A stretch of 64,000 nt of DNA from Bacteroidetes bacterium SW_9_63_38 (GTDB lineage: Bacteria > Bacteroidota > Rhodothermia > Rhodothermales > Salinibacteraceae). The stretch spans positions 62,001 through 126,000 of the forward strand of contig PXUA01000014.1 of NCBI GenBank assembly GCA_003022435.1, in the 5' to 3' direction. Below are positions 38,467-61,300 of the stretch, piece by piece. Below the pieces are notes generated by a model. That model had not been told where the DNA came from, made no database searches, and saw only the letters and a list, made by a program, of their open reading frames with translations. Each line of letters starts with the position of its first letter. Position 1 is the first letter of the stretch. Both the position numbers and the translations under genes were made by a program.

Positions 38467-38518
38467 GCACCCGCTCGCAAAACAGGTTCTCATCGTTCAA
38501 TCGTCCTGCGTCGCTCGA

Positions 38519-39502: not shown

Positions 39503-40081
39503 AAGTGTGGTCGGCGAGTGAGGGGGAGGTGATACAACAGGTCCATCTCGTCCAACGAGGGCGGGGCGGGGACCCCGCGCCGTCCTGCAGCTGGTGAGGA
39601 AATCCTCCGAGGGGGGCGCGATCCCCTCTCCTCATTCCATTCGAATCGGCACAGTTTCTGCCCGAGAGACGGAAGCGCTTTTGAGAATGTTTGCGGGTAC
39701 GTTTCTACCCACTTCGTGAGACCCACTGTTCTAAAATGCAAGGGAACACGCAGCGGTTCGCAATTGGACGGACGATGATGAGGAAGAAAATCTCGCGAAT
39801 CACGCACACTCCATTTTAACATTCTCGTTGGACAGTTGCGAATCTACGCAGGCGGCGGTGCAGGCGATTGCGTGTTTGCATTCTCTGCTGAGGATGGACG
39901 GCTCGTCCGCCTCCGCTCATTCCGGGCAGAGGGGGCGCTCAGCTGCACAATGGCCTCCCACGTCCGGCCACCCGCCAACGTGCTTTCCCTGGAACCTTCG
40001 GAGGGGAACTTGATCTGGCGGCGTCGCGCCCGTTTCTTCTGTGGACGCCTTCGCCCTTCCGTTCTCGCGCCCCGTCTTTTC
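39503..40081. other. Divergent spacer between gpsA and the second symporter
   Basis: 579 bp without a recognisable gene. The symporter frame stays open back to 39836, but this part is Arg/Ser/Pro-rich and not like the family. Both genes' promoters must be here. A GGCGGGGCGGGGACCCCGC run lies near 39560. Confidence 0.4.
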
Positions 40082-41920: not shown

Positions 41921-41972
41921 GGTGGGCGTTGGGGGCCAAATTGGTTTGCACTGCTCTCGTTCGGTGGTTGGT

Positions 41973-44909: not shown

Positions 44910-45065
44910 TCCCTGTTGCGTGGTGCGCCGTGGGGGTGGGGAAAGAGGCTGTTTGGGCGGATGTGGGAGGGTTGGAAGGTGGATGGTTGGGAGAGGAATG
45001 AACGTGGTCTCGGGGATTGCATACGATGAATAAACACATTCACCTGGACAAAAAGTGGAGGTGTT

Positions 45066-45569
45066 ATGGCCACGACCACGACCCGGGAGCAGGAGCGGTG
45101 GGGGGAGATTGTCAACGATCCGCTGCTTCAGGATCTTCCGTATAAAGTTGAGACCAACCCGCAGGGACAAATTGTCTTGAGTCCACACACGGCCCGCCAT
45201 TCCGAGCTTCAGGAAGAGCTCCAGGATCTTCTGCGTGAGCATGCGCCTGAGGGACGGCAGCCCCCGGAGTATCCCATTGCGACCCCGCAGGGGATTAAAC
45301 AGGCGGATGTGATTTGGGCGAGTCGCGACCGACTGCGCGAGATGCGGGAGACCGGCGATCCGCCCACATTGGCCCCGGAGATCTGCGTGGAGATTCTGAG
45401 CGCCTCGAACACAGTCGGGGAAATGGCCGAAAAACGCACCTTATATCGAAGAGCGGGCGCCGAGGAGGTCTGGATTGTGGATCGGGACGGTACGATTCGA
45501 CTCTTTCAGGACGAGGAAATGGATCGGTCGGCGTGGGCGCCCGATTGTCCGTCGCAGTTGTCCATGTGA
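45066..45569 (+). CDS. Uma2 family putative endonuclease
   Basis: 167 residues, second Uma2 protein of the window. The PD-(D/E)XK pattern is IKQADVIWAS (Asp), PEICVEILSASNT (Glu) and MAEKRTLYRRAGAEEVWIVD (Lys). It lacks the N-terminal third seen in the 7238 copy and differs in sequence, so it is not a recent duplicate. It converges on the clostripain-like lipoprotein gene. Confidence 0.83.
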   Translation: MATTTTREQERWGEIVNDPLLQDLPYKVETNPQGQIVLSPHTARHSELQEELQDLLREHAPEGRQPPEYPIATPQGIKQADVIWASRDRLREMRETGDPPTLAPEICVEILSASNTVGEMAEKRTLYRRAGAEEVWIVDRDGTIRLFQDEEMDRSAWAPDCPSQLSM

Positions 45570-45581
45570 GCCGCGCTCCTT

Positions 45582-46628
45582 CTACTCTGACGTGTGGCAC
45601 CCCCACCCCGAGTGTGTAGTGTGGTCGGCCTGGGGACCGAAGCGGGCGGGGCGATGCCATACACGCACGCCGGACGTGTCGACGGCGGCGTCGAGTACGC
45701 GGCGGCAGTCGACGTGGCGTCCGCCGGTCGGGGTCGTCGACGTATCGGGACGGGCCGTCCGGGTCGGGCCGCGGGCCGTGGAGACAACGCGGTCCATGTC
45801 GTAGGTGGCGAGGGTGACGGCCGTCGTCACGCGGTTGACAAGGCGGTTGTGGGCCCGTTTCGCGAACCGCGCCGTCCAGGCCGACGGGGAGGCAATTGGG
45901 AGGGTTGATAGCAGGTCCGCGTCGAGAAACGAGAGGTGCAGGTCGCTGGGCGATGCAAGGAGACTGCGAGCGTACGGGGCCAGGGCAGCTACGGTGTGCG
46001 GGGTGCCGCCGTCGCAGGTGGAGAGGACCACTGCATCGAACGCGTCGGCGGTCGTCAGTTGCTCCAGGCCACGTGCAAGATCGTCGATCCCGAACGGCAC
46101 GTCCCGGTGGGATCGGTGGTAGCCGGGCCGCGGGCGTTCGGGGACGGCGTGACCGTAGTAGAGTGCCGTCGTGAGGAGCGTGGAGTCGGGGGTGGAACTG
46201 CGGTATTGCCGTAGAAAAGCGGCCGCCCCGGCGAAGGTCGAGTCGGGCGTCCGCTTGTACGTCGTCCGGTGTTGGAGCCGGCCTCGCCGGAAGTGGTACA
46301 GGGTTCCGTCGTCGCGGGGAAAGAGGCCCAGCAGCGGATCCTGCGGGCGCTGGTGGACGATGAAGACTTCGGCTTGCGGCATCGACCGGGCCGCCGCGAA
46401 GGCCTCCCGAAGGGTTTCCTCGTCGGCCTGGTGGGCGGCGCCGTCCGGCGTGTGGTACAGGTAGCTGGCATCCCCGTGGACGAGCACGACAATGCGCTGT
46501 TGGAGCTCAGTCGACGGGGATGGCGGGGGCGCGTCCGCGTTGGGAACGGGGACGACGCTGCTGCATCCGCTCGCAGTGAGGAGCACTGCACACAAGAGCA
46601 GTGCTGCGCGGGGGCACACCGGCATCAT
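45582..46628 (-). CDS. Clostripain-like (C11) lipoprotein
   Basis: 348 residues with a lipoprotein signal (LLLCAVLLTASGC). The body fits the clostripain/caspase-like fold: IVVLVHGDASYLYH at the start, an ALYYGHAVPE His-Gly segment near residue 160 and FDAVVLSTCDGGTPHTVAAL, where the Cys is the likely nucleophile, near 205. Peptidases of this kind act on Arg or Lys bonds. The C-terminal 60 residues are Thr/Arg-rich. It starts 6 bp after a small exported protein gene and is probably co-transcribed with it. Family assignment moderate. Confidence 0.6.
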   Translation of the reverse strand: MMPVCPRAALLLCAVLLTASGCSSVVPVPNADAPPPSPSTELQQRIVVLVHGDASYLYHTPDGAAHQADEETLREAFAAARSMPQAEVFIVHQRPQDPLLGLFPRDDGTLYHFRRGRLQHRTTYKRTPDSTFAGAAAFLRQYRSSTPDSTLLTTALYYGHAVPERPRPGYHRSHRDVPFGIDDLARGLEQLTTADAFDAVVLSTCDGGTPHTVAALAPYARSLLASPSDLHLSFLDADLLSTLPIASPSAWTARFAKRAHNRLVNRVTTAVTLATYDMDRVVSTARGPTRTARPDTSTTPTGGRHVDCRRVLDAAVDTSGVRVWHRPARFGPQADHTTHSGWGCHTSE

Positions 46629-46634
46629 CGGCAG

Positions 46635-47087
46635 TCACACGAGCAGGACGATCAGGATCAGGACGAGTAGAGCCGTGGTGAGGCTGATGGTGAGGGTGCG
46701 GTCGGCTTGCTCGAAGTCCTGCTGCACGTAGTCGGCGAACGAGTTGAGTTGGCCGGCGGGCACGGCCTCGTAGCCGTTCTGGCCGTGAAGTTCGTCGAGC
46801 GTCTCCTGAAGGCGCGTGCGCAGGGCATCAATTCCTTCCTGGTCGCTGGGCGACAGGGTTGCCATCGACTCCGCACGGTTCAGCGCGTCGATCATGCCGC
46901 GCAGTTTTTCGTCCAGGAGCGCGCGTTTCTTTTCGGCTGTCGGGGCGGCCTTCACGTCCTGGACCATCGAACGCACGTGCTGCTTAAGCTTCTTGTGCGG
47001 GTTGATGTCAGCCTGGACGGGCGTGGCCACTGCGAGAAGCATAAGGGCCAGGACGACGAGCGCGGAGCGGTGGAGGAGTGTGCGCAT
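46635..47087 (-). CDS. Small exported, C-terminally anchored protein
   Basis: 150 residues, not recognised. Signal peptide SALVVLALMLLAVATPVQA at the start, a charged helical middle (coiled-coil-like, DALNRAESMATLSPSDQEG) and a C-terminal helix LTTALLVLILIVLLV. The two-ended membrane design suggests a periplasmic protein tethered by its tail. It shares an operon with the clostripain-like lipoprotein (6-bp gap). Confidence 0.65.
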   Translation of the reverse strand: MRTLLHRSALVVLALMLLAVATPVQADINPHKKLKQHVRSMVQDVKAAPTAEKKRALLDEKLRGMIDALNRAESMATLSPSDQEGIDALRTRLQETLDELHGQNGYEAVPAGQLNSFADYVQQDFEQADRTLTISLTTALLVLILIVLLV

Positions 47088-47547
47088 GGAGGAACTGGGG
47101 CTGCGAACGTAAGAGTGCGACTACGAACAAACGGAATACGCGGGGCATGTGCAAGTGCGCACCGTATCACCGGCAGGGCGATTGCGTGCTGGGAGATGTC
47201 CGGAAACGTCGGAGGCGATGTTGCCGCTGAATTCTCCCTCTGCCCAGACTGAGCGGACGCGTGGAGGCATGGAGGCAATAACGCTGTGCCTGAATACCAA
47301 GTCCGGCTGCAAGCTTCCGATTCAGAGAGATGTGATCCTCGTAGCGCCGTTGGACTCCAACGGCGCTACAAAGCCGGATCATCAACACAAAGCCGGATCA
47401 TCAACCAGAATGAATCTGCCGGATTTGGTATTATGGGCAGCTGCATGGGACGGACGTACGAACCTATCCGGGCCTGAGCCGTGCCTTATCCCCCTCCGCG
47501 GCCCGGTGTGGAGATTGGCGTTCGTCGAATGCAAATGCTCGTTCGTG
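47088..47547. other. Spacer before the NfeD gene
   Basis: No recognisable gene although the plus frame stays open. It holds a perfect odd palindrome at 47341-47369 and, right after it, two direct copies of AAAGCCGGATCATCAAC (47370-47404). A GGAGGCATGGAGGCA word cluster lies near 47263. Confidence 0.45.
47341..47369. repeat. Perfect 29-bp palindrome (14+1+14)
   Basis: GTAGCGCCGTTGGA, a single C, then the exact reverse complement TCCAACGGCGCTAC. Short palindromes of this general type are dispersed in some bacterial genomes as REP-like units. The two AAAGCCGGATCATCAAC copies immediately downstream hint that this is part of a larger mobile or repeated unit. Confidence 0.75.
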
Positions 47548-48135
47548 ATGGACCTGCTGGATCCTGTACTTGTGACTTGGGCCTTCGTGATTGGCGGAGG
47601 ACTGTTGATGGTATTGGAGACGGTGGTGCCCGGCGGCGTCGCGGGATTTCTGGGACTGGGCGGGCTCGTGGTTGCGGGGCTCCGGACGCTCGGACTTCTG
47701 CTGAATCCCTGGACGGCGCTTACGACGTGGATCTTTCTGTCGGTGGGGCTTACGATTGCGCTGCGGCCCCTGGCGATGCGGTTTGTGGAGGGGGACATCT
47801 CGCTGGCGTTAACCGATGAAGATGCGGAGGCGATGGGGACGGAGGTGCCGGTGCTCGAAACGGTGGGGGAGGAGTCGCCGGGACGCATCCGGTTCCGGGG
47901 CTCGGGCTGGGACGCGCGGAGCGTGAAGGGGACGCTGCCGAAGGGCGCGACGGCGCGACTGCTCTACCGCGACAACCTGACGTGGGTCGTGGAGGCGGCG
48001 GACGATTCGGATCTTGACTACGAACTGGACGCGGCGACGGAGGGAGAGTTGCCACCGGGGCGAACGCCCGAGTCGGACGATGACGGCGACGAGTCCGGCG
48101 GGCTGGGGTACGATCCGTCGGCGCGGGTGGGGTAG
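47548..48135 (+). CDS. NfeD-like membrane protein
   Basis: 195 residues: two to three membrane helices (WAFVIGGGLLMVLETVVPGG, LGLGGLVVAGLRTLGLL, WIFLSVGLTIALRP) followed by a soluble OB-fold with GRIRFRGSGWDARSV, the NfeD C-terminal signature, and an acidic tail. This is the short NfeD form without the serine-protease domain. NfeD proteins pair with stomatin/prohibitin (SPFH) proteins, and an SPFH gene follows 94 bp downstream. The ATG at 47548 is chosen by the start of the first helix. Confidence 0.88.
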   Translation: MDLLDPVLVTWAFVIGGGLLMVLETVVPGGVAGFLGLGGLVVAGLRTLGLLLNPWTALTTWIFLSVGLTIALRPLAMRFVEGDISLALTDEDAEAMGTEVPVLETVGEESPGRIRFRGSGWDARSVKGTLPKGATARLLYRDNLTWVVEAADDSDLDYELDAATEGELPPGRTPESDDDGDESGGLGYDPSARVG

Positions 48136-48229
48136 CAGGTTGGACGGTTGGCAGATTGAAGGTTGGAAGGGAAAGGTTGGAGAAGGAGAGAAGGGGTATC
48201 TCGCCGTTTCTCACATCTCAGATGTGCCT

Positions 48230-49144
48230 ATGTGGACGCTTTTATTGCTCGTTATCGGGGGTGCGCTGTTCATCGTCTACCACACATTTATCATCGTGGA
48301 GATGCGCGAGGAGGTCATCCTGGAGCGGTTTGGGAAGTACCACGCGACCCTGGAGCCGGGCTTTCACTTTGTCGTGCCGTTCATTGATCGGGTGGCCTAC
48401 CGGCAGGAGACGCGCGAGCAGGTGCTGGACGTGCCGCACCAGACTTGCATCACGAAAGACAACATCGAGGTGGACGTGGACGGCCTCGTGTACCTGAAGG
48501 TGATGGACTCGTACAAGGCCAGCTACGGAATCAACGACTACCGGCTGGCGGCGGTAAACCTGGCGCAGACGACGATGCGGAGCGAGGTCGGCAAGATTAC
48601 GCTCGACGACACGTTCAGCGAGCGCGACGCGATGAACGAGGCGATTGTGGAGGAGCTGGACAAGGCGTCCGACCCCTGGGGCGTGAAGGTGATGCGCTAC
48701 GAGCTGAAGGACATTCAGCCGGCGCAGGACATCGTGCGCACCATGGAGAAGCAGATGGAGGCCGAGCGCGAGAAGCGGGCCGAGATTACGGAGTCGAGCG
48801 GGGAGCGCGATGCCCGGATCAACGTGTCGGAGGGAGAGCAGCAGGAATCGGTGCTGTTGTCGGAGGGACAGCGTGAGAAGCGGATCAATGAGGCAGAGGG
48901 GGATGCTCGAGAGATGGAGCTGATTGCCGAGGCGACGGCCAACGGCATTGAGCGCATCGCGGACGCGATTTCGCAGCCGGGCGGCTCGCTGGCGGTGAAG
49001 ATGCGGCTCACGGAGCAGTTCATCGATCGGCTCGGGGAGGTCGTTGACGGGGCCGACGTGAGCGTGTTGCCGATGGACGCGGCCAACATGCGGTCGTTCT
49101 TTGAGGGGGCCTCCGAAGTGACCGGCTCCGTCCGGAAGGGGTAG
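48230..49144 (+). CDS. Stomatin/slipin-type SPFH protein 1
   Basis: 304 residues. N-terminal membrane anchor MWTLLLLVIGGALFIVYHTF, then the SPFH domain: EVILERFGKYHATLEPGFHF, DVPHQTCITKDNIEVDVDG and VMRYELKDIQPA. A long charged coiled coil (about residues 165-245, EMEAEREKRAEITESSGER and repeats) follows. Such proteins form large membrane-associated rings with NfeD partners. Neighbours: NfeD upstream and a paralogous SPFH gene downstream. Confidence 0.92.
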   Translation: MWTLLLLVIGGALFIVYHTFIIVEMREEVILERFGKYHATLEPGFHFVVPFIDRVAYRQETREQVLDVPHQTCITKDNIEVDVDGLVYLKVMDSYKASYGINDYRLAAVNLAQTTMRSEVGKITLDDTFSERDAMNEAIVEELDKASDPWGVKVMRYELKDIQPAQDIVRTMEKQMEAEREKRAEITESSGERDARINVSEGEQQESVLLSEGQREKRINEAEGDAREMELIAEATANGIERIADAISQPGGSLAVKMRLTEQFIDRLGEVVDGADVSVLPMDAANMRSFFEGASEVTGSVRKG

Positions 49145-49172
49145 TCTCCTTCGGGGGTTCTGCCGGCTTGAA

Positions 49173-49287
49173 GCATGGAGGCTCTGGAGGCATGGATGCT
49201 TTGGATGCTTGGATGCTTTGGATGCTTGGATGCTTTGGAGGCATGGATGCTTTGGAGGCATGGATGCTTTGGAGGCATGGATGCTCG
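49173..49287 (+). repeat. Minisatellite of TGGATGCTT / GGAGGCATGGATGCTTT units
   Basis: About 115 bp of short tandem units: GGAGGCATGGATGCTTT and its shortened form TGGATGCTT repeat several times in imperfect order between the two SPFH genes. Related words (GGAGGCATGGACGCG) occur singly near 4322, 15206, 47263 and 50459. It probably changes length by slippage. Confidence 0.8.
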
Positions 49288-49415
49288 GTAGTGGGAGGTA
49301 CATCGATCGAGCTCCCATGCGTCCAGGCGTCCATGCATTCCGGCACCGTCTTTTGCGTCTGGCACAGGGGTAGTCAAGTTTCCTTTCTTACGAATCGAGC
49401 ACTACCACAACGGAC

Positions 49416-50399
49416 ATGGAGCTCTTCACCGCCCTCAACAACGCCAGCCTCGGCATTCTCGCACTACTGGCACTCTACGTGGCCTACAAATTTTTGCGGG
49501 CCATTCGGTTTGTGCCCCAGCAGAGTGCCTACGTCGTCGAGCGGCTCGGCAACTACCACAAGACGCTCGAGGCGGGCTTTCATGCGCTCGTGCCGTTTTT
49601 TGACGAAGTGAGGTACACGCATGACCTGCGTGAGCAGGCCATCCCGGTGGAGCCGCAGGAATGCTTTACGGAGGACAACGTGCGGGTGGAGGTGGATGGG
49701 GTCATCTACCTGAGTGTCACCAATCCCGTGAACACCAGTTACGGGGTCACTGACTACCGCCGGGCGGCCATTCAGCTGGCGCAGACCACGACGCGGTCGG
49801 TCATCGGACGGATGGAGTTGGATACCACGTTTCAGGAACGGGCGGCCATCAGCCGGGCCGTGGTCGAGGTGCTCAGTGAGGTCGAGCAGACCTGGGGCAT
49901 CAAGGTGCACCGCTACGAGATCAAAAATATCGACCCGCCGCGCACGGTGCAGAAGGCGATGGAGCGGCAGATGACGGCCGAGCGGGAGCGGCGCGCGACG
50001 GTGGCCCGGTCGGAGGGCAAGCAGCAGTCCACGGTCAACGACGCCGAAGGCGAAAAGCAGGAGCTCATCAATCAGTCGGAGGGGGAAAAGCAGCGGCGCA
50101 TCAACGAGGCGGAGGGCCGTGCGAAGGAGATCGAGGCGATTGCCGAGGCGACGGCAGAGGCGATTGAGCGCGTGGCGGGGGCGGTGTCGGCGCCCGGTGG
50201 GGAGGAGGCGGTGAAGCTGCGCCTCGCCGAGCAGTACCTGAAGACCATCTCGAAGCTCGGCAAGAAGGAGAACGAGGTGCTCCTCCCGGCGGACCTGACG
50301 CGGTATGAGTCGGTCATCGATGGACTGTCGCTCGACGAGTTCAAGCTGCGGCCCGACGAGGAGATAGCATCGCCGAGTAGGGAGGACGGGGAGGAGTAG
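49416..50399 (+). CDS. Stomatin/slipin-type SPFH protein 2
   Basis: 327 residues, paralogue of the preceding gene. Anchor helix SLGILALLALYVAYKFLRAI, then SAYVVERLGNYHKTLEAGFH, the SPFH core with IPVEPQECFTEDNVRVEVDG and VHRYEIKNIDPPRTVQ, and a long coiled coil (residues about 190-260, EGEKQELINQSEGEKQRRIN). It is closer to the classic HflK/stomatin-like (QmcA) pattern than copy 1. A minisatellite lies in the spacer before it. Confidence 0.92.
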   Translation: MELFTALNNASLGILALLALYVAYKFLRAIRFVPQQSAYVVERLGNYHKTLEAGFHALVPFFDEVRYTHDLREQAIPVEPQECFTEDNVRVEVDGVIYLSVTNPVNTSYGVTDYRRAAIQLAQTTTRSVIGRMELDTTFQERAAISRAVVEVLSEVEQTWGIKVHRYEIKNIDPPRTVQKAMERQMTAERERRATVARSEGKQQSTVNDAEGEKQELINQSEGEKQRRINEAEGRAKEIEAIAEATAEAIERVAGAVSAPGGEEAVKLRLAEQYLKTISKLGKKENEVLLPADLTRYESVIDGLSLDEFKLRPDEEIASPSREDGEE

Positions 50400-51210
50400 A
50401 GGACTGGCAGGTTGGTGGAGAGAGAATGGGGAGATAGAGAATAGGGGCGAAAGTGGGGAGGCATGGAAGCGTAGGAGCATGGATGCATGGAAGCACGGAC
50501 GCGAGGGGGGCGTTTCGTGTGGTTTGGGCAATCGCATCCCGAGAGATTCGGTCTAGAGGTGGCGGTTCTTTTCTTTTGATCGACGAGATTGTCAGGAGCG
50601 TATGAGCGAGAGGGCGCTCCGGCGCGGGAAAGAATGCCCACGCGGCCGCAGTCGGAAAAATCGATCCAGCGCGAGATGTGATCGCCGAGACATCTTCAAA
50701 CTACGCGTATAGTTTAATATTGAACTAAGCGGACAGCTTGACGATTTCGGGTGGCGGCAGTCAATTGGGATTAGGAGAAAAGGCCCGGTTCGGTGGGATG
50801 TATAGGGTAAGAGGTCAAATAATTTTCCTCTTATATCTGGGTAGTGGGCCCCCTGTGTGTGGGCGAAAATCGGCGTCTCTGGCCTCTGAGGGCAAAATTT
50901 CATCGCTGCCTTCCCCCTTTCCATTCCGAGAATCACCTTTTCGAAGCAAAATGCCGGATTTCGAGAATTAAATCGGGGGTAGATCGGTGGGGATTCCCCT
51001 GCAACGCCTGAAAAGGGCGGTTTTTACCAACACGTGGTAGGGCCATTACCTGTATAGGAGCAGGGCAGGAAACTTGGATGGTTCCTCGGATGGGAAGAAA
51101 CCTTCTATGAAGAGGGATTATAAAAGAGTAATCACTGCTGAGTGCCTTTTTCGCGGTGTTGGCGGGACCCACCGGTGTGCCGGGATTCGGAACGTGCACT
51201 GCGTCGGGCA
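50400..51210. other. 811-bp AT-rich gene-free stretch
   Basis: No gene recognised. GC falls well below the window average between about 50700 and 51150. An imperfect palindrome TAGTTTAATATTGAACTA lies at 50710-50727. Together with the repeat copy that follows it makes about 1 kb without a gene ahead of the Amt-kinase fusion. The left part has GGAGCATGGATGCATGGAAGC words. It may be a decayed insertion or a long regulatory region; no sigma-54 type promoter was recognised. Confidence 0.4.
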
Positions 51211-51336
51211 TAGTGCAGCTTCAAACGATCTTTTGGGGAAAGCAGTTTGCTATTGCTCCAAGCTCCAGCTTGAGGTATGGACGGACGAGGTCCGTCCAAA
51301 GCTCGATTGCACAACGGACCAGTTGAAGCTGCAATA
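51211..51336 (+). repeat. 126-bp TA-flanked repeat, copy 5
   Basis: Complete: TA, GTGCAGCTTCAAACG, hairpin CAAGCTCCAGCTTG, hairpin GGACGGACGAGGTCCGTCC, AGTTGAAGCTGCA, A, TA. Ends are inverse over 11 bp and TA is on both sides. It ends 78 bp upstream of the Amt-kinase start. Confidence 0.9.
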
Positions 51337-51414
51337 GGTGCCGAGCAGGAACCGCTCGGGCGTCCATGGGGGCTGCGTCGCCTCTGTTGTTTTTAGCTTT
51401 TCCAATTCTCGACG

Positions 51415-54087
51415 ATGCACATGTGGACGAGAATCGCTTTTCTGCTTGCTCTGTCTGGGATGGTGGGGGAGCCGGTTGCGGCCCAGGAGGCGCCCGATGC
51501 AGTGTCGGCCGTCGAGGCCGTCCAGACAAATCTCGACTACGTGTGGACGGTGGTGGCGGCCACGCTGGTGTTTTTCATGCAGGCGGGGTTTGCCTTGTTG
51601 GAGACGGGGCTGACCCGCGCGAAGAATGCGATCAACATCATCATGAAGAACGTGACGGACGCCTCGGTGGGCGTCTTCGTGTTCTTCGCGGTGGGGTTCG
51701 GCCTTATGTTCGGATCGTCGTTGAATGGGCTGGTGGGCACCAGCGGATTTTTTCTGAGCGGACTTGTGGAGCAGCACGGGTCGTGGGCATACGCGTTTTT
51801 CCTCTTTCAGGCGGTCTTTGCGGCGACGGCGGCGACCATCGTGTCCGGGGCCGTGGCGGAGCGGACGCGCTTTGCGGCGTATCTAGTGTTTTCTGTGATC
51901 GTGACCGGTCTCATCTACCCGGTGTTCGGGGCGTGGGCCTGGGGCGGACTGCTCAACGGCGGCGGGTGGCTCGAACGGCTCGGATTCATCGACTTTGCGG
52001 GCTCGACGGTTGTGCATTCGATCGGAGGATGGGCGGCGCTGGCGGGCACGATTGTCGTGGGACCGCGGCGGGACAAGTACGACGAAGACGGGGCGCCCCG
52101 CGACATTCCGGGGCATAGCCTGCCGTTGGCGGCGCTGGGCATGTTCATCCTATGGCTCGGCTGGTTCGGGTTCAACACCGGGTCGACGACGGCCGGGACG
52201 CCCGCGATTGCACGGATCGTCGTGAACACGTTTCTGGCGGCCGCGGCAGGAGCTGTGGGGGCGCTGTTTGCGGCGTGGATCCGGACGGGGACGCCCACGC
52301 CGATGCTGACCCTGAACGGAGTGCTTGGGGGACTTGTGAGCATCACGGCGGGCTGTGCGACTCTGATGCCGGGGGCGGCGCTTCTGACCGGGGCCGTGGC
52401 GGGGATGGGGCTCGTGTACGCTACGGCCGCGCTGGAACGGGTGATTGACGATCCGGTGGGGGCGGTGGCGGTGCACGGTGTGTGCGGCGTCTGGGGAACG
52501 GTGGCGGCCGGGGTGTTCGACGCGTCCGGCCTGGCGGTGCAGCAGGTCGGGGTGCAGCTTCTGGGCGTAGCCGCGGCCTTTCTGTGGGCCTTTCCCGTCA
52601 GCTACATGGCCTTTCAGTTTGCGGACCGGCTGGTGGGGCTGCGGCTCCCCGAGGCCGTGGAGGAGAAGGGACTGGACCGGCACGAGCACGACGCGGAGGC
52701 CTACCCCGGACTTATGGGAGACGGCGCGCGTCGAACGCACACGGAGGGGATCAGCCGGGACGAGGTGTTCGAGGACGACAGCGCGTCGCGGAGTCCGCTG
52801 GCGCTCGATCAGGGCACTATGCTCAACGATCAGTTCCGCATCGGGCGCGTGCTGGGCATCGGGGGGTTCGGCCTCACGTACCTTGCCTACGATGAGATAC
52901 TGGAGATGGGCGTGGCCGTTAAAGAGTATCTGCCGAACGACATGGCGGCCCGGAAGACGGACGGGGACACCGTGCAACCTCTCACTACGACGGGGGCGGA
53001 GATGGACGAGGCCGATTTCGAGTACGGGCTCGACCGGTTTCTGCAGGAGGCCCGCACGCTCGCTCGGTTCGAGCGCCACCCGAACATCGTACGGGTGCGT
53101 ACCTTTTTCGAGGAAAACGGGACCGCCTATCTGGTGATGAACTTCTACCAGGGGCGTACGATGGGCGAGTACCTGGCGCTCAACAACGGGTTCATTCCGG
53201 AGGAGGAAGCGCTCCTGATCATGCAGCAGGTCCTCGATGGGCTATCGGCCGTTCACGAGGCCGACGTGCTGCACCGCGACATCGACCCGAGCAACGTGTA
53301 TCTGGCGGACGACGGGACGGTGGTGCTTCTCGACTTCGGGGCCGCCCGGGCGGCGATGGGCGAGCGGACGCGCAACATGTCGGTGGTGCTGAAGCGCGGG
53401 TATGCGCCCCGCGAGCAGTACAAGAAGGAGGGGACGCAGGGGCCGTGGACGGACGTGTACGCGTGTGCGGCGACGCTCTACCGGGCGCTTACCGGGTTCA
53501 AGCCGCCGGATGCCGCCGAGCGTCTTCTGGACGACGAGCTAGTGCCGCCCGACGAGCTGGTGCCGCCCCTTTCGCCGGCGACCAGCGCGGCGATCCGGAA
53601 GGGGCTGGCCGTGGAGCCGGACGACCGGCCCCAGTCGGTCGAGGCCCTTGCTGCGTTGCTGCCGGAGCCGCCGGCCCGGACGCCGGGCTGGGTGGGACAG
53701 GAGAGTACACTCGACGTGCCGGCGCCCGCTCCGGAGAAGGCGTCGGAATTGCGGATCTGGACGAGCCACCCGTGCCGGCTCTACGTCGACGGCAGTGAGA
53801 CCGGCGAGTTTCAGCCGGGGGAGTCGTACACGATCGGGGTGGAACCGGGGACGCACGATCTTCGGGCGGTGCGTACCGACCGGGCGGCGCAGGAGAGTGT
53901 GACGGTCACGGCCACGGGGCCGCCGGAGGAGGAAGGCGGGGACAATCGGATGTCGCTGGAGACACTCGTCTGGCAGGAGGTGGTCTCGACCGCGAAGAGC
54001 GAGCCCACGGATGCGGAGATCGATTTTGAGGACGTGGACGCGGACGAGGGCGGCGGCGCAGACGACAAAACGGTCCGCCTCGACTGA
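51415..54087 (+). CDS. Ammonium transporter (Amt) fused to Ser/Thr protein kinase and PEGA-like domain
   Basis: 890-residue single chain. Signal peptide 1-23, then an Amt domain (about 35-425) with GFALLETGLTRAKNAINIIM, GFNTGSTTAG and both channel histidines, H201 (STVVHSIGGWAALAG) and H354 (VAVHGVCGVWGT). After an acidic linker, residues about 470-745 are a Hanks-type kinase: loop GIGGFGLTYLAYD, VAVK503EYL, catalytic HRDIDPSN with D622, and DFG at 640-642. Residues about 775-830 resemble a PEGA domain (CRLYVDGSETGEF). The acidic tail is Asp/Glu-rich. No frameshift joins the parts. An ammonium-sensing kinase (transceptor) is inferred. The ATG at 51421 is an alternative start. Confidence 0.92.
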   Translation: MHMWTRIAFLLALSGMVGEPVAAQEAPDAVSAVEAVQTNLDYVWTVVAATLVFFMQAGFALLETGLTRAKNAINIIMKNVTDASVGVFVFFAVGFGLMFGSSLNGLVGTSGFFLSGLVEQHGSWAYAFFLFQAVFAATAATIVSGAVAERTRFAAYLVFSVIVTGLIYPVFGAWAWGGLLNGGGWLERLGFIDFAGSTVVHSIGGWAALAGTIVVGPRRDKYDEDGAPRDIPGHSLPLAALGMFILWLGWFGFNTGSTTAGTPAIARIVVNTFLAAAAGAVGALFAAWIRTGTPTPMLTLNGVLGGLVSITAGCATLMPGAALLTGAVAGMGLVYATAALERVIDDPVGAVAVHGVCGVWGTVAAGVFDASGLAVQQVGVQLLGVAAAFLWAFPVSYMAFQFADRLVGLRLPEAVEEKGLDRHEHDAEAYPGLMGDGARRTHTEGISRDEVFEDDSASRSPLALDQGTMLNDQFRIGRVLGIGGFGLTYLAYDEILEMGVAVKEYLPNDMAARKTDGDTVQPLTTTGAEMDEADFEYGLDRFLQEARTLARFERHPNIVRVRTFFEENGTAYLVMNFYQGRTMGEYLALNNGFIPEEEALLIMQQVLDGLSAVHEADVLHRDIDPSNVYLADDGTVVLLDFGAARAAMGERTRNMSVVLKRGYAPREQYKKEGTQGPWTDVYACAATLYRALTGFKPPDAAERLLDDELVPPDELVPPLSPATSAAIRKGLAVEPDDRPQSVEALAALLPEPPARTPGWVGQESTLDVPAPAPEKASELRIWTSHPCRLYVDGSETGEFQPGESYTIGVEPGTHDLRAVRTDRAAQESVTVTATGPPEEEGGDNRMSLETLVWQEVVSTAKSEPTDAEIDFEDVDADEGGGADDKTVRLD

Positions 54088-54089
54088 TT

Positions 54090-54111
54090 CCACTGCGGGG
54101 AGCCGCGGTGG
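54090..54111 (+). terminator. Possible hairpin terminator after the Amt-kinase gene
   Basis: CCACTGCGG, loop GGAG, CCGCGGTGG: a nine-pair stem with one T-G pair, 2 bases after the stop. It is followed by GAAAAG and, about 12 bases later, a TTTTT. The U-run is displaced, so this is a weak candidate. Confidence 0.35.
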
Positions 54112-54647
54112 GAAAAGACGGTGGATTTTTGCCCGTCACTCGCATCCTGCTCTTTACAACCCACTGCAGTGTCAACGCTGATCTTGCGTACGTGAGGAAG
54201 AGGAACAATCCCGGATTGCTGATCGACAAACGGATTGTATCGCACCCCGACGGCTGTCGGGCACTTCCTCGTTTCCACTCAGGGCGCGTAATGCGTATTG
54301 CGTGAGATCGTGTTCGAACTCGCGGCGCCCATCCTTGACCCGGGCACTTGGATATTGACGGTTGACACTGCACTACAAGAGGAGAGCGGAGCACAGCGGG
54401 ACGGCGCCATGCATCCATGCTTCCGCTCATTCTGTGCGGGGGCTCAGCGGCAGCATCGCCGCCCACGTTTCCGGATGGCTGCCAACGCACAATCGCCCTG
54501 TGGATTTTGGACGAGGGTTGACATTCAGCGGGCGTGTTATGAATCCCGCTCGTGCCCCATGCATTTCATAGCACCGATTTCGACACGAAAGGCTCGGGCC
54601 GTTGCGGCCCGTCCGGCCGGTTCCCTCATCCATTCTGCGCCCCAATC
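54112..54647. other. Gene-free stretch before the UPF0182 gene
   Basis: No gene recognised. It contains one copy of the dispersed CTCACGCAATACGC repeat. The promoter of the next gene is presumed within the last 150 bp. Confidence 0.35.
54236..54306 (-). repeat. Dispersed repeat (CTCACGCAATACGC type), copy E
   Basis: Read on the minus strand: CTCACGCAATACGCATTACG, CGCCCTGAGTGGAAACGAGG, AAGTGCCCGACAGCCGTCGG, then GGTGCGATACAATCC. The inner CCGACAGCCGTCGG is a hairpin. It matches 6618-6680 throughout, the other copy lacking the hairpin loop. Confidence 0.7.
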
Positions 54648-57539
54648 ATGTCTCTTCTGCGATCGAGTCGCCCGCTCCAGGTCCTCCTGGGGATTATCGG
54701 CCTCGTGCTGACCACGTTCCTGTTCGCCCCGGACCTCCTCGTTGAGTATCTCTGGCTCGGGGAGCTGGGCTATGAGGGGGTGTTCTGGACCATTCGCACC
54801 ACGCAGGTGGTGCTGTTTCTAATTGTGTTTGCGGTTGCCGGCCTCTACTTCGGCGGCAACTTCCTGCTGCTTCTGCGCCGCATCCCCCCGCTGTGGGCCT
54901 CCCAGTGGGCGCAGGGCGGCGAGGCGCCGACGGTGGGGGGCGAGCCGCTCACGCGCGACCGTCTCAAGCGCTTCGCGTACGTCCTGGCGGCGGTGCTGAG
55001 CCTCCTGTTCGCTACCGGGTTCTCGGGGCGATGGGACGACGTGTTGCGCTTCTGGTACGCTGCGTCGTACGGGCAGGCCGATCCGATTTACGGGCACGAC
55101 CTGGCCTTCCACATGCTGGAGCTGCCGTTCATCCAGGCCCTTCAGAGCGCCGTCGTGGGCCTGGCCTTCCTGGGCCTTCTGGTGCTTGGCACCAGCTACG
55201 TCGTCGCGGGCGAAATTGGGATTCAGAACGGACAGTTTCGCGTAAAGGAAGGGCCGCTGCGTCACCTCGGGGGCAACGTGATTCTGCTGCTGCTGGGGTG
55301 GGCCGTCGGGTTTTACCTCGATCGCTTTGAAATGCTGCAGGAAGGGGGCGGCGGGGCCGTCTTCGGGGCCGGGTATACGGACATCAACGTGGTGCTCCCG
55401 GCCCTCTGGCTCATGATTGGGGCGACGCTTACGCTGGCCGGCCTCGTGGCGTACAACCTGTACCGCCGGAATCTCCGGCTTCTCGGGTTCGGGGTGCTCG
55501 GGTACGTAGTGGTGCTGGTCGGGGCGCTTGTGGCGGCCCCGGCCCTGGTAACGCAGGTCACCGTCCTGCCCAGTGAGTTTCAGATGGAGAAGCCGTATCT
55601 GGAACACAACATCGAGATGACGCGCGAGGCGTATGGGCTGGAGGACTTCAAGGAGGAGTCGTACCCGGCCAAGCCCAGCCTGCCGCCGGACGCAGTGGCC
55701 GACAACCAGGAAACCATCGACAACGTGCGGCTCTGGGACCCGCGTCTCCTGATCGACACGTACCGCCAGCTCCAGGAAATCCGGCTGTACTACGAGTTCT
55801 ACAGTGTGGACGTGGACCGGTACATGATTGACGGCGACTACCGGCAGGTGATGGTGTCGCCGCGCGAATTGACGCAGCAGTTGCCCGAGGACACGTGGGA
55901 CAACCGCCACGTGCGCTTCACGCACGGATACGGATCGGTTGCGAACCTCGTGGCCCGCGAAGGCACGGAGGGGGATCCGGAGTTTCTGGCACGCGACATT
56001 CCGCCCCAGACCGAGCATGAAGCGCTCGATGTGGAGGATCCCTCGATGTACTACGGCGAGAACACGCCCCATTACCGAACCGTCCCGGCGGGGAATCCGG
56101 ACGGCGAGCCGCTGGAACTCCATTACCCGAAGTCCGGGGAGAACGTGTACACGCGCTACGAGGGCGACGGTGGGGTCAGTGTAGGTAGCTTTTGGAAGCA
56201 GCTGCTGTTTTCGTATTTCCTCGGCGACTTCAACATCCTGCTCACCAACTACATCGAAGACAACAGCCGGATCCAGTTCTGGAATCGGGTGCCTGAGCGG
56301 GTGAACCGGGTCGCTCCGTTTCTGAAGCTTGACAACGATCCCTACCTCGTGCTGGGGGACGACCGGCAGTACTGGATGGTCGATGCCTACACGACGAGCA
56401 ACTCGTTTCCGTACTCCGAGCCCATCCGGGATCAGCGCAACTACCAGGGCACGCGTTACATCCGCAACTCCGTGAAGGTGGTGGTAGACGCCTACAGCGG
56501 AGAGGTGTCCCTCTACGTGGCGAATCCGGACGATCCAATTCTCCAGACGTACCAGAAGATCTTTCCGGATCTTTTCCAGCCGCTCGACGCGATGCCGGAG
56601 CGGCTGCAGGACCACATTCGCTACCCGCAGGACTTCTTTGAAATGCAGGTGGAGCGGTACCGGCGCTACCACCAGACCCAGCCGCAGGTGTTCTACAACA
56701 ACGAGGACCTCTGGACGCGGCCCAAGGAACAGTATGCGGATCGGCAGCGGCGGATGGAGCCCTACTACATTCTGACCGATCTGCCGGGGGAGAGGGCGGA
56801 TGAAGGGACAACGGAAAAGGGGTTGGAGTTTATGCTCATGCTGCCGATGACGCCGGAGGGACGAGACAACATGATTAGCTGGGTCGCGGCCCGGTCGGAC
56901 CCACCGAATTACGGCGAGGTGGTGGTGTACGACCTGCCGAAAGAACGGCTCATCCGCGGTCCCAATCAGATTGAGTCGCGGATCGACCAGGACACGGAAA
57001 TCTCCCGGCAGCTCTCGCTGTGGGACCAGCGGGGCTCGAACGTAATTCGCGGCAATCTGATCGTGGTGCCCATCGAGGAGTCGTTCCTCTACGTGGAGCC
57101 GATCTTCCTGGTTGCGGAGGAGATTCAGATTCCGGAGATGCAGCGCGTGATCGCGGCTACCGATCAGCGGGTGGCCATGAAGCAGACCCTCCGCCAGTCG
57201 CTCAACAGCGTGCTGGGCGAGGAGGTCGTCGAGACGCGGCAGAAGGCACTGGCCAACATGCAGCAGGCTGCGGGGGCGGCCCAGCGGGCGTCGCCGCAGC
57301 GCATCGAGGAGCTAGAGGAGGCAAAGGACCTCATTAAGAAGGCGCGCACGGCACTTCAGGACGGGGACTTTGCCCAGTTCGGCGAGCGCTTTAAGAAACT
57401 CGAGAACGTGCTGAACGAGGTGTCGCTCTCGGATACGACGACTGCTCCCGCTGCTCCCACCCCGTCGTCCGGCGTCGATACGACGGCGGCCCCGGCCTCT
57501 CCCGCCTCGGCCGACACCGTATCGGCCGGTCGCTATTGA
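54648..57539 (+). CDS. UPF0182 family membrane protein
   Basis: 963 residues. Seven or so membrane helices in the first 330 residues (LLGIIGLVLTTFLFAPDLL, VVLFLIVFAVAGLYFGGNF and others), then a large extracytoplasmic domain with the UPF0182 motifs NIEMTREAYGL near residue 320, NVRLWDPRLLIDTYRQLQEI and YRQVMVSPRELTQQLP, and later PYLVLGDDRQYWMVDAYTTS. The C-terminal 100 residues are Ala/Thr/Asp-rich. Function of the family is unknown. The ATG at 54648 is chosen; the upstream frame is Pro/Cys-rich and unlike the family. Confidence 0.93.
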   Translation: MSLLRSSRPLQVLLGIIGLVLTTFLFAPDLLVEYLWLGELGYEGVFWTIRTTQVVLFLIVFAVAGLYFGGNFLLLLRRIPPLWASQWAQGGEAPTVGGEPLTRDRLKRFAYVLAAVLSLLFATGFSGRWDDVLRFWYAASYGQADPIYGHDLAFHMLELPFIQALQSAVVGLAFLGLLVLGTSYVVAGEIGIQNGQFRVKEGPLRHLGGNVILLLLGWAVGFYLDRFEMLQEGGGGAVFGAGYTDINVVLPALWLMIGATLTLAGLVAYNLYRRNLRLLGFGVLGYVVVLVGALVAAPALVTQVTVLPSEFQMEKPYLEHNIEMTREAYGLEDFKEESYPAKPSLPPDAVADNQETIDNVRLWDPRLLIDTYRQLQEIRLYYEFYSVDVDRYMIDGDYRQVMVSPRELTQQLPEDTWDNRHVRFTHGYGSVANLVAREGTEGDPEFLARDIPPQTEHEALDVEDPSMYYGENTPHYRTVPAGNPDGEPLELHYPKSGENVYTRYEGDGGVSVGSFWKQLLFSYFLGDFNILLTNYIEDNSRIQFWNRVPERVNRVAPFLKLDNDPYLVLGDDRQYWMVDAYTTSNSFPYSEPIRDQRNYQGTRYIRNSVKVVVDAYSGEVSLYVANPDDPILQTYQKIFPDLFQPLDAMPERLQDHIRYPQDFFEMQVERYRRYHQTQPQVFYNNEDLWTRPKEQYADRQRRMEPYYILTDLPGERADEGTTEKGLEFMLMLPMTPEGRDNMISWVAARSDPPNYGEVVVYDLPKERLIRGPNQIESRIDQDTEISRQLSLWDQRGSNVIRGNLIVVPIEESFLYVEPIFLVAEEIQIPEMQRVIAATDQRVAMKQTLRQSLNSVLGEEVVETRQKALANMQQAAGAAQRASPQRIEELEEAKDLIKKARTALQDGDFAQFGERFKKLENVLNEVSLSDTTTAPAAPTPSSGVDTTAAPASPASADTVSAGRY

Positions 57540-57920
57540 TGCGGAACGGAGGCCGGGGGGCTCTCCGGGTCGGCTTCTGCGAGGAAGGCCCCAGCGCAGT
57601 ACCGGGGGCCGGCCGCCCGTACCCCCCCGACTGCATGTGAGCCTGCGGGGATGTACCGGGTCGGGAAGACGGGCGTGCCGGGGATCCCGTGTTTACTGAA
57701 CGAGGGGTCACCGATCTGAGATCGGGAACGTGTGCTCTCTACGTGCGGCCCTGCACGGCCCGCAGCTGTCGCAAAAGATCGCCGACGTGCGTTTTCACGA
57801 ATCGGAAAGCGCCACGGGATGAGTGCAAAGCGGTCGATGTCGCCCGTTCTTCGGGCCCAACGGGGTGGCACGAGGTGCTTTGGAAGCACATCGGCGGGAT
57901 GGACACCACATCCAAAAAAA
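57540..57920. other. Gene-free stretch, 381 bp
   Basis: Convergent intergenic region. No gene recognised; several Arg/Pro-rich short frames look random. At 57913-57952 a sequence resembling the GAGACTGTTTT IS end overlaps the 3' end of the next gene. Confidence 0.3.
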
Positions 57921-58301
57921 TCAACGCTGTCTCAAAACGGTCTCTTGGGCGTCGGACCGGTACAGCTTCAAAGCAGCGTACCCGGTGCCGACTACGAGGA
58001 GCCATGTCGAGCCGCTCAGCGGAACGTCGTCTGGGTTATCGTTGGGGGGTTGAAAATGAGAATCTTGTGTCCGTACGTTCTCGGTCGGGCCGTTCCTCAT
58101 TCCCGACCGGTCAGAGGGACTCTCGTTCGAGGGGCGAGCCCACTCTGGAAGATCACCGGACGACTCCGGTCCTGACCGAGAGGGGCGCTCCCGCTCTGCG
58201 GTTGGCCGCTGGTGCCCCCGGTCCTGCGAGTGGACATTCGACACCGGGACAGCAGGAAGCAACAGGACGCAAAGGCAAGAAGTGAGCAAAATGCGAGACA
58301 T
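57921..58301 (-). CDS. Small exported protein with PID/PEP-CTERM-like tail
   Basis: 126 residues. Signal peptide SCLCVLLLPAVPVSNVHSQ, a disordered Pro/Ser/Arg-rich middle, then DDVPLSGSTWLLVVGTGYAA and LKLYR: a short turn, a hydrophobic helix and basic residues, resembling the PID-CTERM/PEP-CTERM sorting signals handled by exosortases. The usual D-G of PIDGG appears as S-G. The last codons (ETVLRQR, stop) coincide with an IS-end-like sequence, so the tail may be altered. It lies 50 bp downstream of the giant surface-protein gene and is probably co-transcribed. Confidence 0.6.
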   Translation of the reverse strand: MSRILLTSCLCVLLLPAVPVSNVHSQDRGHQRPTAERERPSRSGPESSGDLPEWARPSNESPSDRSGMRNGPTENVRTQDSHFQPPNDNPDDVPLSGSTWLLVVGTGYAALKLYRSDAQETVLRQR

Positions 58302-58351
58302 CCGCTTGTGGAGACCGATTCGCAGACGCTGAGGGGGGGAAGAGAAGAGCC

Positions 58352-61300
58352 CTAGTGAACCACCGTCATTCGGCGCGTTTCCAGGAAGTTGTCGCCCTTG
58401 ATCCGAAGGAAATAGGCGCCGCTCGAGAGCCGGTCGGTGGCAATCTCGATGACCTCCTCGGTCTGGGCCGGAACAGGGCCCCGATGGGCCGTCCGGACGT
58501 GTCGACCGAGGATGTCGTACACCTGCACGCGAACCGACTGCTCGTCGCGGACCGCGAGCTTGAGCCTCGCCCGCTGGTTCTGGGGCACCGGGTTGGGGTA
58601 GGTCTTCCCAACCTCGTGGGCCGTTCCGAGGCGAACCTGTGCCTCCGCCGGGTCGGTGTACTGGGGGGAGCTCTTCCCGTCCGCCATGCGGAGGCGGAAG
58701 AGATGGCGCCCGTAGTCCAGATCCTTCAAGCGGGTGCTGTACTCGCCCGACGACTTGGACGCGGAGGCCTTCAGGGAGGTGCGCCGGCGCCAGTCTCCGG
58801 GGGACGGGGCCTCGGTTGTGTCCTCCAGCGAGAGGCGCTGGTGCTGCACCACAAAACTGGATGGGCGGGACTCCGACTTCAGTTCCCACTGCAGCGTCAC
58901 CGATCGGTCGCTGACACTCGCGGACAGGCCCCCCTGGAGCGCTATGGTCGTTCCGTCCGTCGACGGACGCTCAATCCGGAGCAGGAACCGGGCCGACGAT
59001 CCCTCGGCCTTCGCACCAGAGGAGTCCTCCGGCGTTGGGACCTCGGCCAGGGCCTGGATTGGCACCGGCCCGTCGGACGGCCCCTTCAGCGCTGGTGCCT
59101 CCTGCTTGGAAGAGCCCGATGCGCCGTCCTTGTTCTTGGCGCTGTCCGTGGTCTTGAACGTGTGCGCATTGGCTGAAGCGGAGGTCAGGGCCGTCGTCTC
59201 GCCGCTCTTCTGGTCTACGAGGACGACGTTCCACGAGGACGGCACCCCGATCCACTCGTTGGCTTGCACCTGAACAGTGCCGTCGGCCTTCTCCAGGCCA
59301 CGCGTTCGAACCGGGACCGTGAGGGTGTCCCCGAAGTCCATCGGCCGGCTCTCAACGGCTTTCATTGCTGTGGAGTCGCCTGCCACCGCCCCTGCCGGCC
59401 CAAAGACCGGCCCGCCGGACAGCGGCGCCAGCTTCGGCGCGTCGAAGCCGTCCCAGTCCGCCGTCGCATTCGAGTGTAGGACGAGGGAGGCCGCTTCGTC
59501 ACGAGCCGTCTGCGTGTTCTCGGACTCGACGGTCATCTTGAGGCCAATCTTTGCGTAGGCAGGCCGGGGGGGAGGGTCGCTGCCTTTCGAGCCGACGATC
59601 GAGCGGGTTCCGGTGGTGGTGCCGCCGGACTTGAAGGTCAATTCGGTGGGACCGCTCGACCGTCCCTGGTTGGTCCGTGTCACCGCAAAGCCCTGCCACG
59701 GAGAAATCACGCGCCCGCTGGGCGCCATGTCGGCAGGGTCCGCGACGGACACGTCGAGGTAAGAGCCGGCCTGGGCGTTGTCTTCACCGCTGGAGTCGCC
59801 GCCGTCCCAGATCTGGACGGTCGCCGAAAAGTCGCCGGTGCCATCGAGGGCGTTCCCGCTGGGGTCCTTCAGGGAGGCAAGGTCGAACGGTACGTTGTAC
59901 GGGTTCGCCAGCACGTGGCCGGGATCGGCGCTCTGGTCGAGGCCGCTGACCGTCTGATCCGTGTTGTCATCCGGTATGCTTCCGGCCGCCATATCGAGCG
60001 TGAGGGTCGGGTCGATGGGCGCGTTGGCATTGTCGAACAGGAAGAGCAGGTGGCCCCGTCCGTTATCAAAGGCATTGCCCTTCGAAAGCCCATCCCAGCT
60101 CGCATTCGTGTCGTTCCACTCGTAGAGCTGGTTGCCGGACGGCAGGTTGAACCGGATGTGCTGGTTGGGCCGCGGCCCCGACACGAGATCGTCGGTCTTC
60201 CCTCCGCTCACGGGCGGCCCCACCATGTACCAGCCGGCGTCCTGTCCCAGCGTGCCGATGCTCGTGTGGCCGGCGTTGCCGGCGATGGTGAGGGCGCGGC
60301 CCGACAGGGGGCTGGTGGTTCGATCGGTCGTGCCGAGCGTGTAGTAGCCATTGCCCTGCGCGGTCACGTCAATACCGGAGAAGGTAATCTGGTCGGCGTT
60401 GGCCACGGACGCAGTTCCCGTGCCGCTCACGGCCGTCCAGTTTCCGCTCGTCCCGCTGCGGTAGAGCAGCACGTACTTGGATGGGTCCGGATCGACGGCC
60501 GGCGGCAGGTCGGCCTTCGAGAGGTCGAAGGTGAGGTCGGCCGTGAGGGTGGAGCCGCTGTTGGTGGGGTCGGCAAACCAGTTTCGATCCATGCGAGCCG
60601 AAAGGCCGGTGACCCCGCTGACGTCCGACGTGTTGACGCTGTTGTCCGCGACCCTGTGGCCGGCCATCAGGTAGTCGCCGTTGTCGAGTCCCGAGGCGGC
60701 CTTAAACCGAAGCCCATCGCTTCCCCCCGCGCTGTGAAAATCGGTTGACGACTCCTGGCCGATGCCAAACGCGGCGCGGTCGTAGTCGCCGTTCCCCCCG
60801 TTGTCTCCCGCGTACACGTCCGTGGCCGTCCCTCCCGTGTTCAGCGCCACCCCATACTTCGCCGACAGGTAGTTGTGGACGAGGGTGCGCTGCGTGGCCC
60901 CCAACTCCTGGTTGAAGACAATCGTCTCCGCGATGTGGCCATCCAGCCGGTCGGCGATGGTGCCGCCTTCATAGCCGGTGCCGACGTAGAAGTTCGTTGC
61001 TGCGGACGGCACCTGCGTCCCCGTGCCCGAGACGTTGTTGCCCCCGGCCTGTTCGTCGCCGTCGATGAAGCGAGTGGCGTCGGTCGTGTCCGAGCTCAGG
61101 CTCGCCGTCAGCAGATAAGAGGTGCCGGACCCTGGACCTGCATTCGCTGTGTAGTCGTGCCGGTCGTCCGAAAGCGCTCGGTTTCCAAATGTATAGAAGC
61201 GATCGGATCCCGAGCTGGTGCGGTAGATTTCCGCCCGGGATTGGCTCGTGCCCAGCGCATCCGCAATCCGAAATACGCCCCCGATCCCTTCACTGCCATC

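Follow-up and report, generated by a model that had tools for sequence, protein, structure and literature searches.

Layout of the fusion gene

The gene described here lies at positions 51415-54087 (+) of a 64,000-nucleotide stretch of DNA, the window (G000:C14:62001-126000), which belongs to a Salinibacter genome of 2.84 Mb in 19 contigs (G000; 83.8% complete, 0.94% contaminated). The genus follows from a genome of the same genus, G067, in which a contig of 35,505 bases opens with 12,000 bases 100% identical to plasmid NC_007678.1 of Salinibacter ruber DSM 13855. The gene is a single open reading frame (ORF) of 890 codons that runs without a stop from an ammonium transporter (Amt) part into a Hanks-type Ser/Thr kinase and a conserved tail (Table 1). 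Both domains are found in the protein well above the Pfam cut-offs: PF00909 scores 388.7 bits over residues 43-430 where 23.2 are required, PF00069 scores 106.9 bits over residues 476-699 where 31.7 are required, and the NCBIfam model TIGR00836 'amt' matches with 409.7 bits against a cut-off of 343.3. The first-pass annotation, which had read an intact Amt joined without a break to a kinase, is borne out by these matches, and H201, H354, K503, D622 and DFG 640-642 are all found where it had placed them. Across the junction, the four 100-codon segments between codons 301 and 550 show a steady third-position G+C content of 0.82-0.86. Since each half aligns lengthwise with separate proteins in relatives, the ORF is no chance frame.

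The conserved C-terminal region of the Amt half is complete and ends at AYP, like that of the standalone relatives, and blastp homology to separate kinases sets in 12-15 residues past the Amt end, at residue 443 for one kinase (L025) and 446 for another (L026).

Table 1. Features of the fusion gene and its upstream flank (positions in the window)
Feature	Position	Strand	Basis or remark
Fusion gene, Amt - kinase - conserved tail, 890 aa	51415..54087	+	single stop-free ORF; full-length match only in own genome
Amt domain (residues 43-430) and C-terminal region, GLDRHEHDAEAY(P)	51541..52704	+	PF00909; best solved relative Ks-Amt5 6eu6
Q56, ammonium-site equivalent	51580-51582	+	T141 and S144 of the same site lie further on
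E63, N79, D82, equivalents of the Ks-Amt5 intramembrane ammonium site	51601..51660	+	alignment; site from excerpt of PMC5764959
H201, first pore histidine (Ks-Amt5 H171)	52015..52017	+	alignment
H354, second pore histidine (Ks-Amt5 H326)	52474..52476	+	alignment
Junction and linker, residues 431-460	52705..52794	+	blastp onset of separate-kinase homology
Hanks-type Ser/Thr kinase, homology taken as residues 461-752	52795..53670	+	PF00069 476-699; best solved relative PpkA 5hnv
K503, ATP-binding lysine	52921..52923	+	alignment
D622 of HRD, catalytic aspartate	53278..53280	+	alignment
DFG 640-642, metal-binding motif	53332..53340	+	alignment
Conserved C-terminal tail, family unnamed	53671..54084	+	common to 4 homologous receptor kinases
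126-bp interspersed palindromic repeat copy	51211..51336	+	78 bp before fusion start codon; context only

Origin of the two halves

Both halves have unfused relatives in the host genome. Besides the fusion it encodes three Amts, one of them cut by a contig end, and the fused Amt is the sister of a standalone Amt 68 kb away, with a Shimodaira-Hasegawa-like approximate likelihood ratio (SH-aLRT) support of 98 in a tree of 168 Amts and 96/96 in a tree of 42 rows. The kinase and tail are 65-70% identical to the corresponding parts of two large proteins, of which the first is encoded on contig C7 of the host genome and the second by a relative (G068). Over the kinase alone these two proteins share 83% identity, and the fusion shares 73% with the C7 protein and 78% with that of G068. 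By Pfam, both are receptor kinases in the order kinase, tail, Big_9 and FG-GAP repeats, and in the C7 protein (L025) a hydrophobic stretch, read by eye, follows the tail; the fusion has neither this stretch nor the Big_9 and FG-GAP parts. Since its kinase and tail match proteins of this order, the fusion took a receptor's cytosolic half behind an Amt, and on sequence comparison it is a domain swap between an Amt and a resident receptor kinase, both of which still have unfused relatives in the genome. The Amt and kinase-tail halves have diverged in protein from their own-genome paralogues by 30% and 34%, with no stop.

Two standalone Amts gave translated matches that pass their TAG stop (G000:C14:44624-45994 to query residue 460, G066:C1:1347344-1348717 to residue 467). 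By blastp the same ORFs end at residues 431 and 440, and the overrun is probably an alignment artefact.

The best solved relative of the kinase half is PpkA (PDB 5hnv, 199 bits), with which it shares the HRD, DFG and AP.EQY pattern. In the alignment the fusion retains the glycine loop, K503, E545, HRD, N627, DFG and E667; several of this catalytic set are absent, in the same alignment, from the most diverged kinase of the genome, which is encoded on contig C13 and sits on a long branch. The tail is a unit common to the fusion and four kinase homologues (five proteins in all). It had been described as PEGA-like, but no PEGA match appears in any of the five tails at E <= 1 (a scan in which the HMMER filters drop most matches above about 0.1), and we have dropped that identity. 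Weak matches to other models are scattered: BiPBP_C in three of the five tails (best E 0.00025, below its cut-off in the tail of the fusion), DUF2846 in two, and DUF7305, PKS_DH_N and YpzG in one each. The best match of the tail among solved structures reaches only E 0.024. As judged from these comparisons, it is a conserved domain without a confident family name.

The Amt half among standalone and sensor Amts

Among solved structures, Ks-Amt5 (PDB 6eu6, 332 bits) is the best match to the Amt half. Aligned with the Ks-Amt5 residues given in PMC5764959, the fusion keeps the Phe gate, selectivity filter and twin histidines (F135, F253, W176, S257, H201, H354). That paper names seven ligands for a site holding two ammonium ions; five of them are identical in the fusion (Q56, E63, N79, D82, T141), and the remaining two, both threonines in Ks-Amt5, are S144 and A83. 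The paper terms this intramembrane site unprecedented. In our alignments Q, E, N, D, T and S stand at the site positions in all 22 other rows of the genus/order set (20 standalone Amts and the fused L031 and L032), and the same pattern recurs in 57 of 96 rows from the genome_contigs collection, mostly standalone Amts, and in 7 of 58 viral rows. The E, N and D are all absent from the equivalent positions of E. coli AmtB. Across this survey the residue set is thus distributed more widely than sensing, and the site is, on sequence, a trait of a wide Amt group rather than a mark of sensors.

A separate group of sensor Amts emerges from the phylogeny. The 168-Amt tree, built by a quick method, leaves out duplicates, viral sequences, any row containing X and any match shorter than about 330 residues (among them L031). 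In it 39 of 46 fused rows form a clade of fusions only (SH-aLRT 95). Outside it fall the fusion of the window and L107, L108, L112, L118, L293 and L305; the PII fusions lie outside. Ks-Amt5 and the Amt of PDB 8qj3 are inside the sensor clade, which in the 42-row tree holds 18 rows, all fused (support 96/98). The clade, with its Amts joined to histidine kinase, chemoreceptor, SpoIIE and cyclase parts, spans several phyla.

A short motif in the C-terminal region follows the same division. Where standalone Amts read GLD, with D in all 114 rows that have a residue there (115 of the 122 standalone rows were used, and the 7 left out are mostly AmtB-like), 37 of 39 sensors have N in its place, and the sequences of 6eu6 and 8qj3 both read GLN. 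GLN instead of GLD may thus serve to recognise Amt sensors by sequence in a simple way, a definition that comes from this analysis and not from the published literature. The fused Amt departs from highly conserved columns at 17 positions and its standalone sister at 18, so the fused copy is not decaying. In keeping with a maintained protein, pairwise ratios of nonsynonymous to synonymous substitution rates (dN/dS) are 0.14-0.25 for both halves over the whole aligned length, with a maximum of 0.33 reached in the later half of the kinase and tail.

Distribution of the fusion

Ks-Amt5 and its kin make Amt fusions a known class of protein. Among 395 genomes sampled from the phylum (at most two candidates scored per genome) the full fusion was found only in its own genome. 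Other collections gave the same outcome: of the 80 genome_contigs loci kept out of 590 confirmed, none matched beyond query residue 474 (records near the own genome may be left out there), of the 80 kept out of 96 on viral contigs none went past residue 446, and none of 679 plasmid records matched by tblastn covered 80% of the query. When the first 200 loci were screened for ORFs, Amt and kinase shared a frame only in the fusion's own copies.

A profile search with both halves was also run on 392 genomes of the phylum of Tautonia (Planctomycetota by record name) and 292 of that of Phormidium (Cyanobacteriota), and returned many long Amts among the matches listed; of the frames above 620 aa, 20 of the 61 listed were scanned in the former and 12 of the 14 listed in the latter. 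PF00069 was found in none of 46 other long Amts scanned by Pfam, a set picked for length from which L058, L067, L108, L118, L280 and L307, among other long Amts, are excluded. Their partners were histidine-kinase parts in 29 (one with a cyclase in addition), SpoIIE in six, chemoreceptor parts in four, a cyclase alone in one and PII in two, and four had no named partner. A kinase profile that recovers all nine kinase loci of the host genome, the diverged ones included, likewise gave no match in the long Amts collected. Sampling was partial, and a second Amt-Ser/Thr kinase case may exist.

In six of the long Amts (L279, L308, L309, L312, L314, L319) the partner is a SpoIIE-type phosphatase, with PAS between in five of the six. 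A SpoIIE type would remove phosphate from Ser/Thr, and a kinase fusion would add it; these Amt-SpoIIE proteins are a possible dephosphorylating counterpart of the Amt-kinase fusion. In the cyanobacterial sample two Amts (L310, L316) are fused to an adenylate/guanylate cyclase domain.

A candidate one-chain ammonium transceptor

The anatomy described above, with a complete Amt and C-terminal region, the catalytic residues of the kinase and most of the Ks-Amt5 site residues, is best fitted by the transceptor in one chain that the first-pass annotation had proposed, but the Amt half lies outside the sensor Amt clade. We suggest how such a protein could have arisen and how it might work. An uptake-type Amt gene of this Salinibacter would have been duplicated, and the resident receptor kinase would have supplied a second copy of its cytosolic half (kinase and tail), which became fused in frame to the end of the Amt copy. 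Going by the homologues, the receptor's membrane helix, which we read by eye, and its extracellular Big_9/FG-GAP part would have been left behind. The product would be an Amt membrane trimer with three kinases hanging from its cytosolic C-terminal regions. Ammonium occupancy or flux may then shift the C-terminal region and alter kinase activity, so that external ammonium would be converted into Ser/Thr phosphorylation of target proteins. In excerpts on plant transporters (PMC7737296) and AmtB (PMC10433425) the Amt C-terminal region is an allosteric element of the trimer, and a kinase hung on it is well placed to sense its state. Fusion of an Amt to an output domain is, moreover, an established signalling route (excerpts of PMC5764959, PMC8534201 and PMC12918730).

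Several observations weigh against this proposal, which rests on one assembly, 84% complete. The fused Amt falls inside the Rhodothermia standalone clade (support 100/100 in the 42-row tree), and a topology with the fusion and 16 sensors as one group, which was named after the first tree had been seen, is rejected by the approximately unbiased (AU) test (p-AU 0.000618). It has D421, and hence GLD, and lacks the GLN motif of the sensors. The ammonium-site residues are common among standalone Amts and are by themselves no evidence of sensing. Nor has the fused Amt moved clearly towards the residues typical of sensors: where it departs from its standalone kin it matches the commonest sensor state at 7 of 22 positions, compared with 4 of 24 for the sister and 6 of 25 for the most distant kin row (L045). 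The dN/dS ratios compare paralogues and are not assignable to the time since fusion. A whole-protein search of 114 genomes of the order (at most eight candidates scored per genome) returned, among the matches listed, a single match over residues 1-890, the fusion itself; by these matches, none of the 12 other Salinibacter genomes among the 114 has it (two of the 12 are 62% and 83% complete).

Standalone Amts are usually read as transporters. Because the fused Amt lies outside the sensor clade and keeps GLD, it probably continues to act as a transporter or has only very recently become a sensor, and its likeness to the Amt-histidine kinase sensors is one of plan and not of descent. Taken together, we give an even chance to the proposal that the protein is a lineage-specific, young and independently evolved ammonium transceptor with kinase output.

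The chain could instead be a self-regulated transporter, an uptake Amt held in check by the kinase attached to it, which would throttle transport by phosphorylating the trimer it belongs to on the cytosolic side, or the standalone Amts; this would be the one-chain counterpart of plant CIPK15 and CIPK23 acting on AMT1. Such a role agrees with the place of the Amt half among standalone Amts with GLD kept, with the kinase directly behind the C-terminal region, with the serines and threonines of the linker (T441, T443, S447, S456, S458, S460) and with the plant precedent in the excerpt of PMC7737296. The position expected to correspond to the plant T460 is, however, H423 in the fusion and H, L or M in seven Rhodothermia standalone rows, so the known plant switch residue is missing from the fusion and from these relatives; in five more distant rows it is M, Q, T or S, with T or S in three. 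We regard self-regulation as unlikely, though well above negligible. A different alternative is that the Amt acts as an anchor only, replacing a lost membrane helix for a kinase that is constitutive or otherwise controlled, with ammonium no signal at all. The absence from the fusion of the hydrophobic stretch and Big_9/FG-GAP parts that follow the tail in the homologous kinases fits an anchor, as does the finding of the fusion in one genome only among the matches listed. The pore, site and C-terminal-region residues that have been kept would be needless for an anchor, and the fused Amt evolves no faster than its standalone sister, which makes this explanation decidedly doubtful.

An assembly artefact or a non-functional chance fusion, whether by misjoined genes or as a freak allele of one cell line, has to be weighed as well, given a single occurrence in a genome of 19 contigs at the completeness stated above, four relatives in which the band-7 and UPF0182 genes occur at this place and the fusion does not, and a repeat copy of 97% identity 78 bp upstream of the gene. 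That repeat lies outside the gene, however, and the halves are stop-free at the distance from the own-genome paralogues given above. Exact identity with the paralogues compared (L002, L003, L025, L246, L247) extends over at most 23 bases, a stretch that lies at codon 191 and off the junction, and a 401-base junction probe run against the genome finds nothing besides itself and three diverged places (72-83%). An assembler needs an exact overlap, and with only 23 shared bases, none of them at the junction, a misjoin is unlikely. An artefact or chance fusion is in our judgement very improbable.

Relation to known systems

The closest known system to the proposed transceptor is Ks-Amt5 (6eu6; excerpt of PMC5764959), which has the same plan of an N-terminal Amt and a C-terminal cytosolic kinase in one chain and likewise no glnK next to its gene, and whose pore and most of whose ammonium-site residues the fusion keeps. 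It differs in output, the Ser/Thr kinase of the fusion being of another family and chemistry, and in its Amt, which belongs to another clade and carries GLN, not GLD. Chemoreceptor, SpoIIE, nucleotide cyclase and PII fusions also use an Amt as the input module for a cytosolic output, and differ in that PF00069 is in none of the 46 scanned. The Amt of PDB 8qj3/8qpf is presumably the diguanylate cyclase fusion Sd-Amt1. In the Salinibacter receptor kinases (G000:C7, G068:C4), which share kinase and tail with the fusion, the kinase is N-terminal and the outer part follows, whereas in the fusion the membrane part comes first and the ectodomain is gone. PpkA is the closest solved kinase domain, but the solved construct has no transporter part. 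Plant AMT1 and CIPK15/CIPK23 likewise form a circuit that couples an Amt with a Ser/Thr kinase, but as two proteins, and the target threonine is absent in the fusion.

Amt fusions as sensors are thus known already, and what is new here is a Ser/Thr kinase as the fused partner. We found no Amt-Ser/Thr kinase fusion described in the titles and abstract openings of the open-licence papers searched, and the excerpt of the review PMC10433425 names none. It is plausible, on a somewhat less than even view, that this is the first Ser/Thr-kinase ammonium transceptor, formed recently and independently of the sensor clade from a working uptake Amt and a resident kinase, and combining transport and signalling in one chain. 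If so, we would be seeing a transporter in the course of becoming a transceptor, Ser/Thr phosphorylation would be added to the list of Amt outputs, and bacteria would have, in a single protein, their own version of the circuits that link Amt and kinase in plants and yeast. It bears on the old question of whether Amt proteins sense while transporting. Ks-Amt5 has lost transport, according to the excerpt of PMC5764959; the fusion starts from a standalone-type Amt. Whether an uptake Amt can drive an attached kinase is directly testable here, because the unfused Amt and receptor kinase of the same genome serve as natural controls.

Genomic setting and further features of the window

The first-pass annotation had noted that no glnK is adjacent to the fusion gene, and indeed a single P-II gene was found in the host genome, next to dabA on a different contig. 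Of the 14 family genomes that are at least 90% complete, 13 carry two or three P-II genes, and since the host genome is less complete than these, a glnK elsewhere in it may be missing from the assembly.

The spot where the fusion lies is variable. In four genomes (G062, G063, G066, G067) an NfeD-like gene, two band-7 genes and a UPF0182 gene stand together with no Amt or kinase between them. G069 has this gene set too, with a gap of about 7.3 kb that likewise lacks an Amt or kinase match, and in the stretches of six others (G054, G065, G068, G070, G071, G072) only the UPF0182 gene was matched. A short methyltransferase-like gene, named from its ORF sequence, occupies the gap in G067, G063 and G069, and the gap of G069 also holds a long frame that reads as a hybrid sensor kinase. 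A remnant of the methyltransferase-like gene was sought beside the fusion by blastn of its two intergenic gaps against 14 loci, which returned only repeat elements, at four places in its own genome. Rfam gave no match at gathering score over positions 45000-60000 of the window.

The repeat upstream of the fusion gene is 126 bp long with imperfect inverted arms. Further copies lie in the window at 4855-4968, 29491-29611, 34133-34260 and 38367-38470 and in L025 at 5108-5233, and these copies are 94-100% identical, with one exception at 84%. The host genome has at least 40 (40 of 85 candidates were scored); elsewhere one copy of 78% identity was found in G068, and 11 other Salinibacter genomes had no match. 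On both strands it folds better than shuffled sequences (z -4.4 and -5.2). It looks like an element of the miniature inverted-repeat transposable element (MITE) or repetitive extragenic palindromic (REP) type that has recently expanded in this one species. A second, more diverged repeat family is found at 54414-54502, 47174-47265 and 39908-39983 of the window and at 5236-5329 of L025, and on contig C7 it is adjacent to the 126-bp repeat. Overlapping ORFs with repetitive, low-complexity translations lie at 48715-49611, behind the first band-7 gene, and at 41826-44909 (+) a frame of 1027 aa joins a glycoside hydrolase family 3 domain to a domain of beta-lactamase fold.

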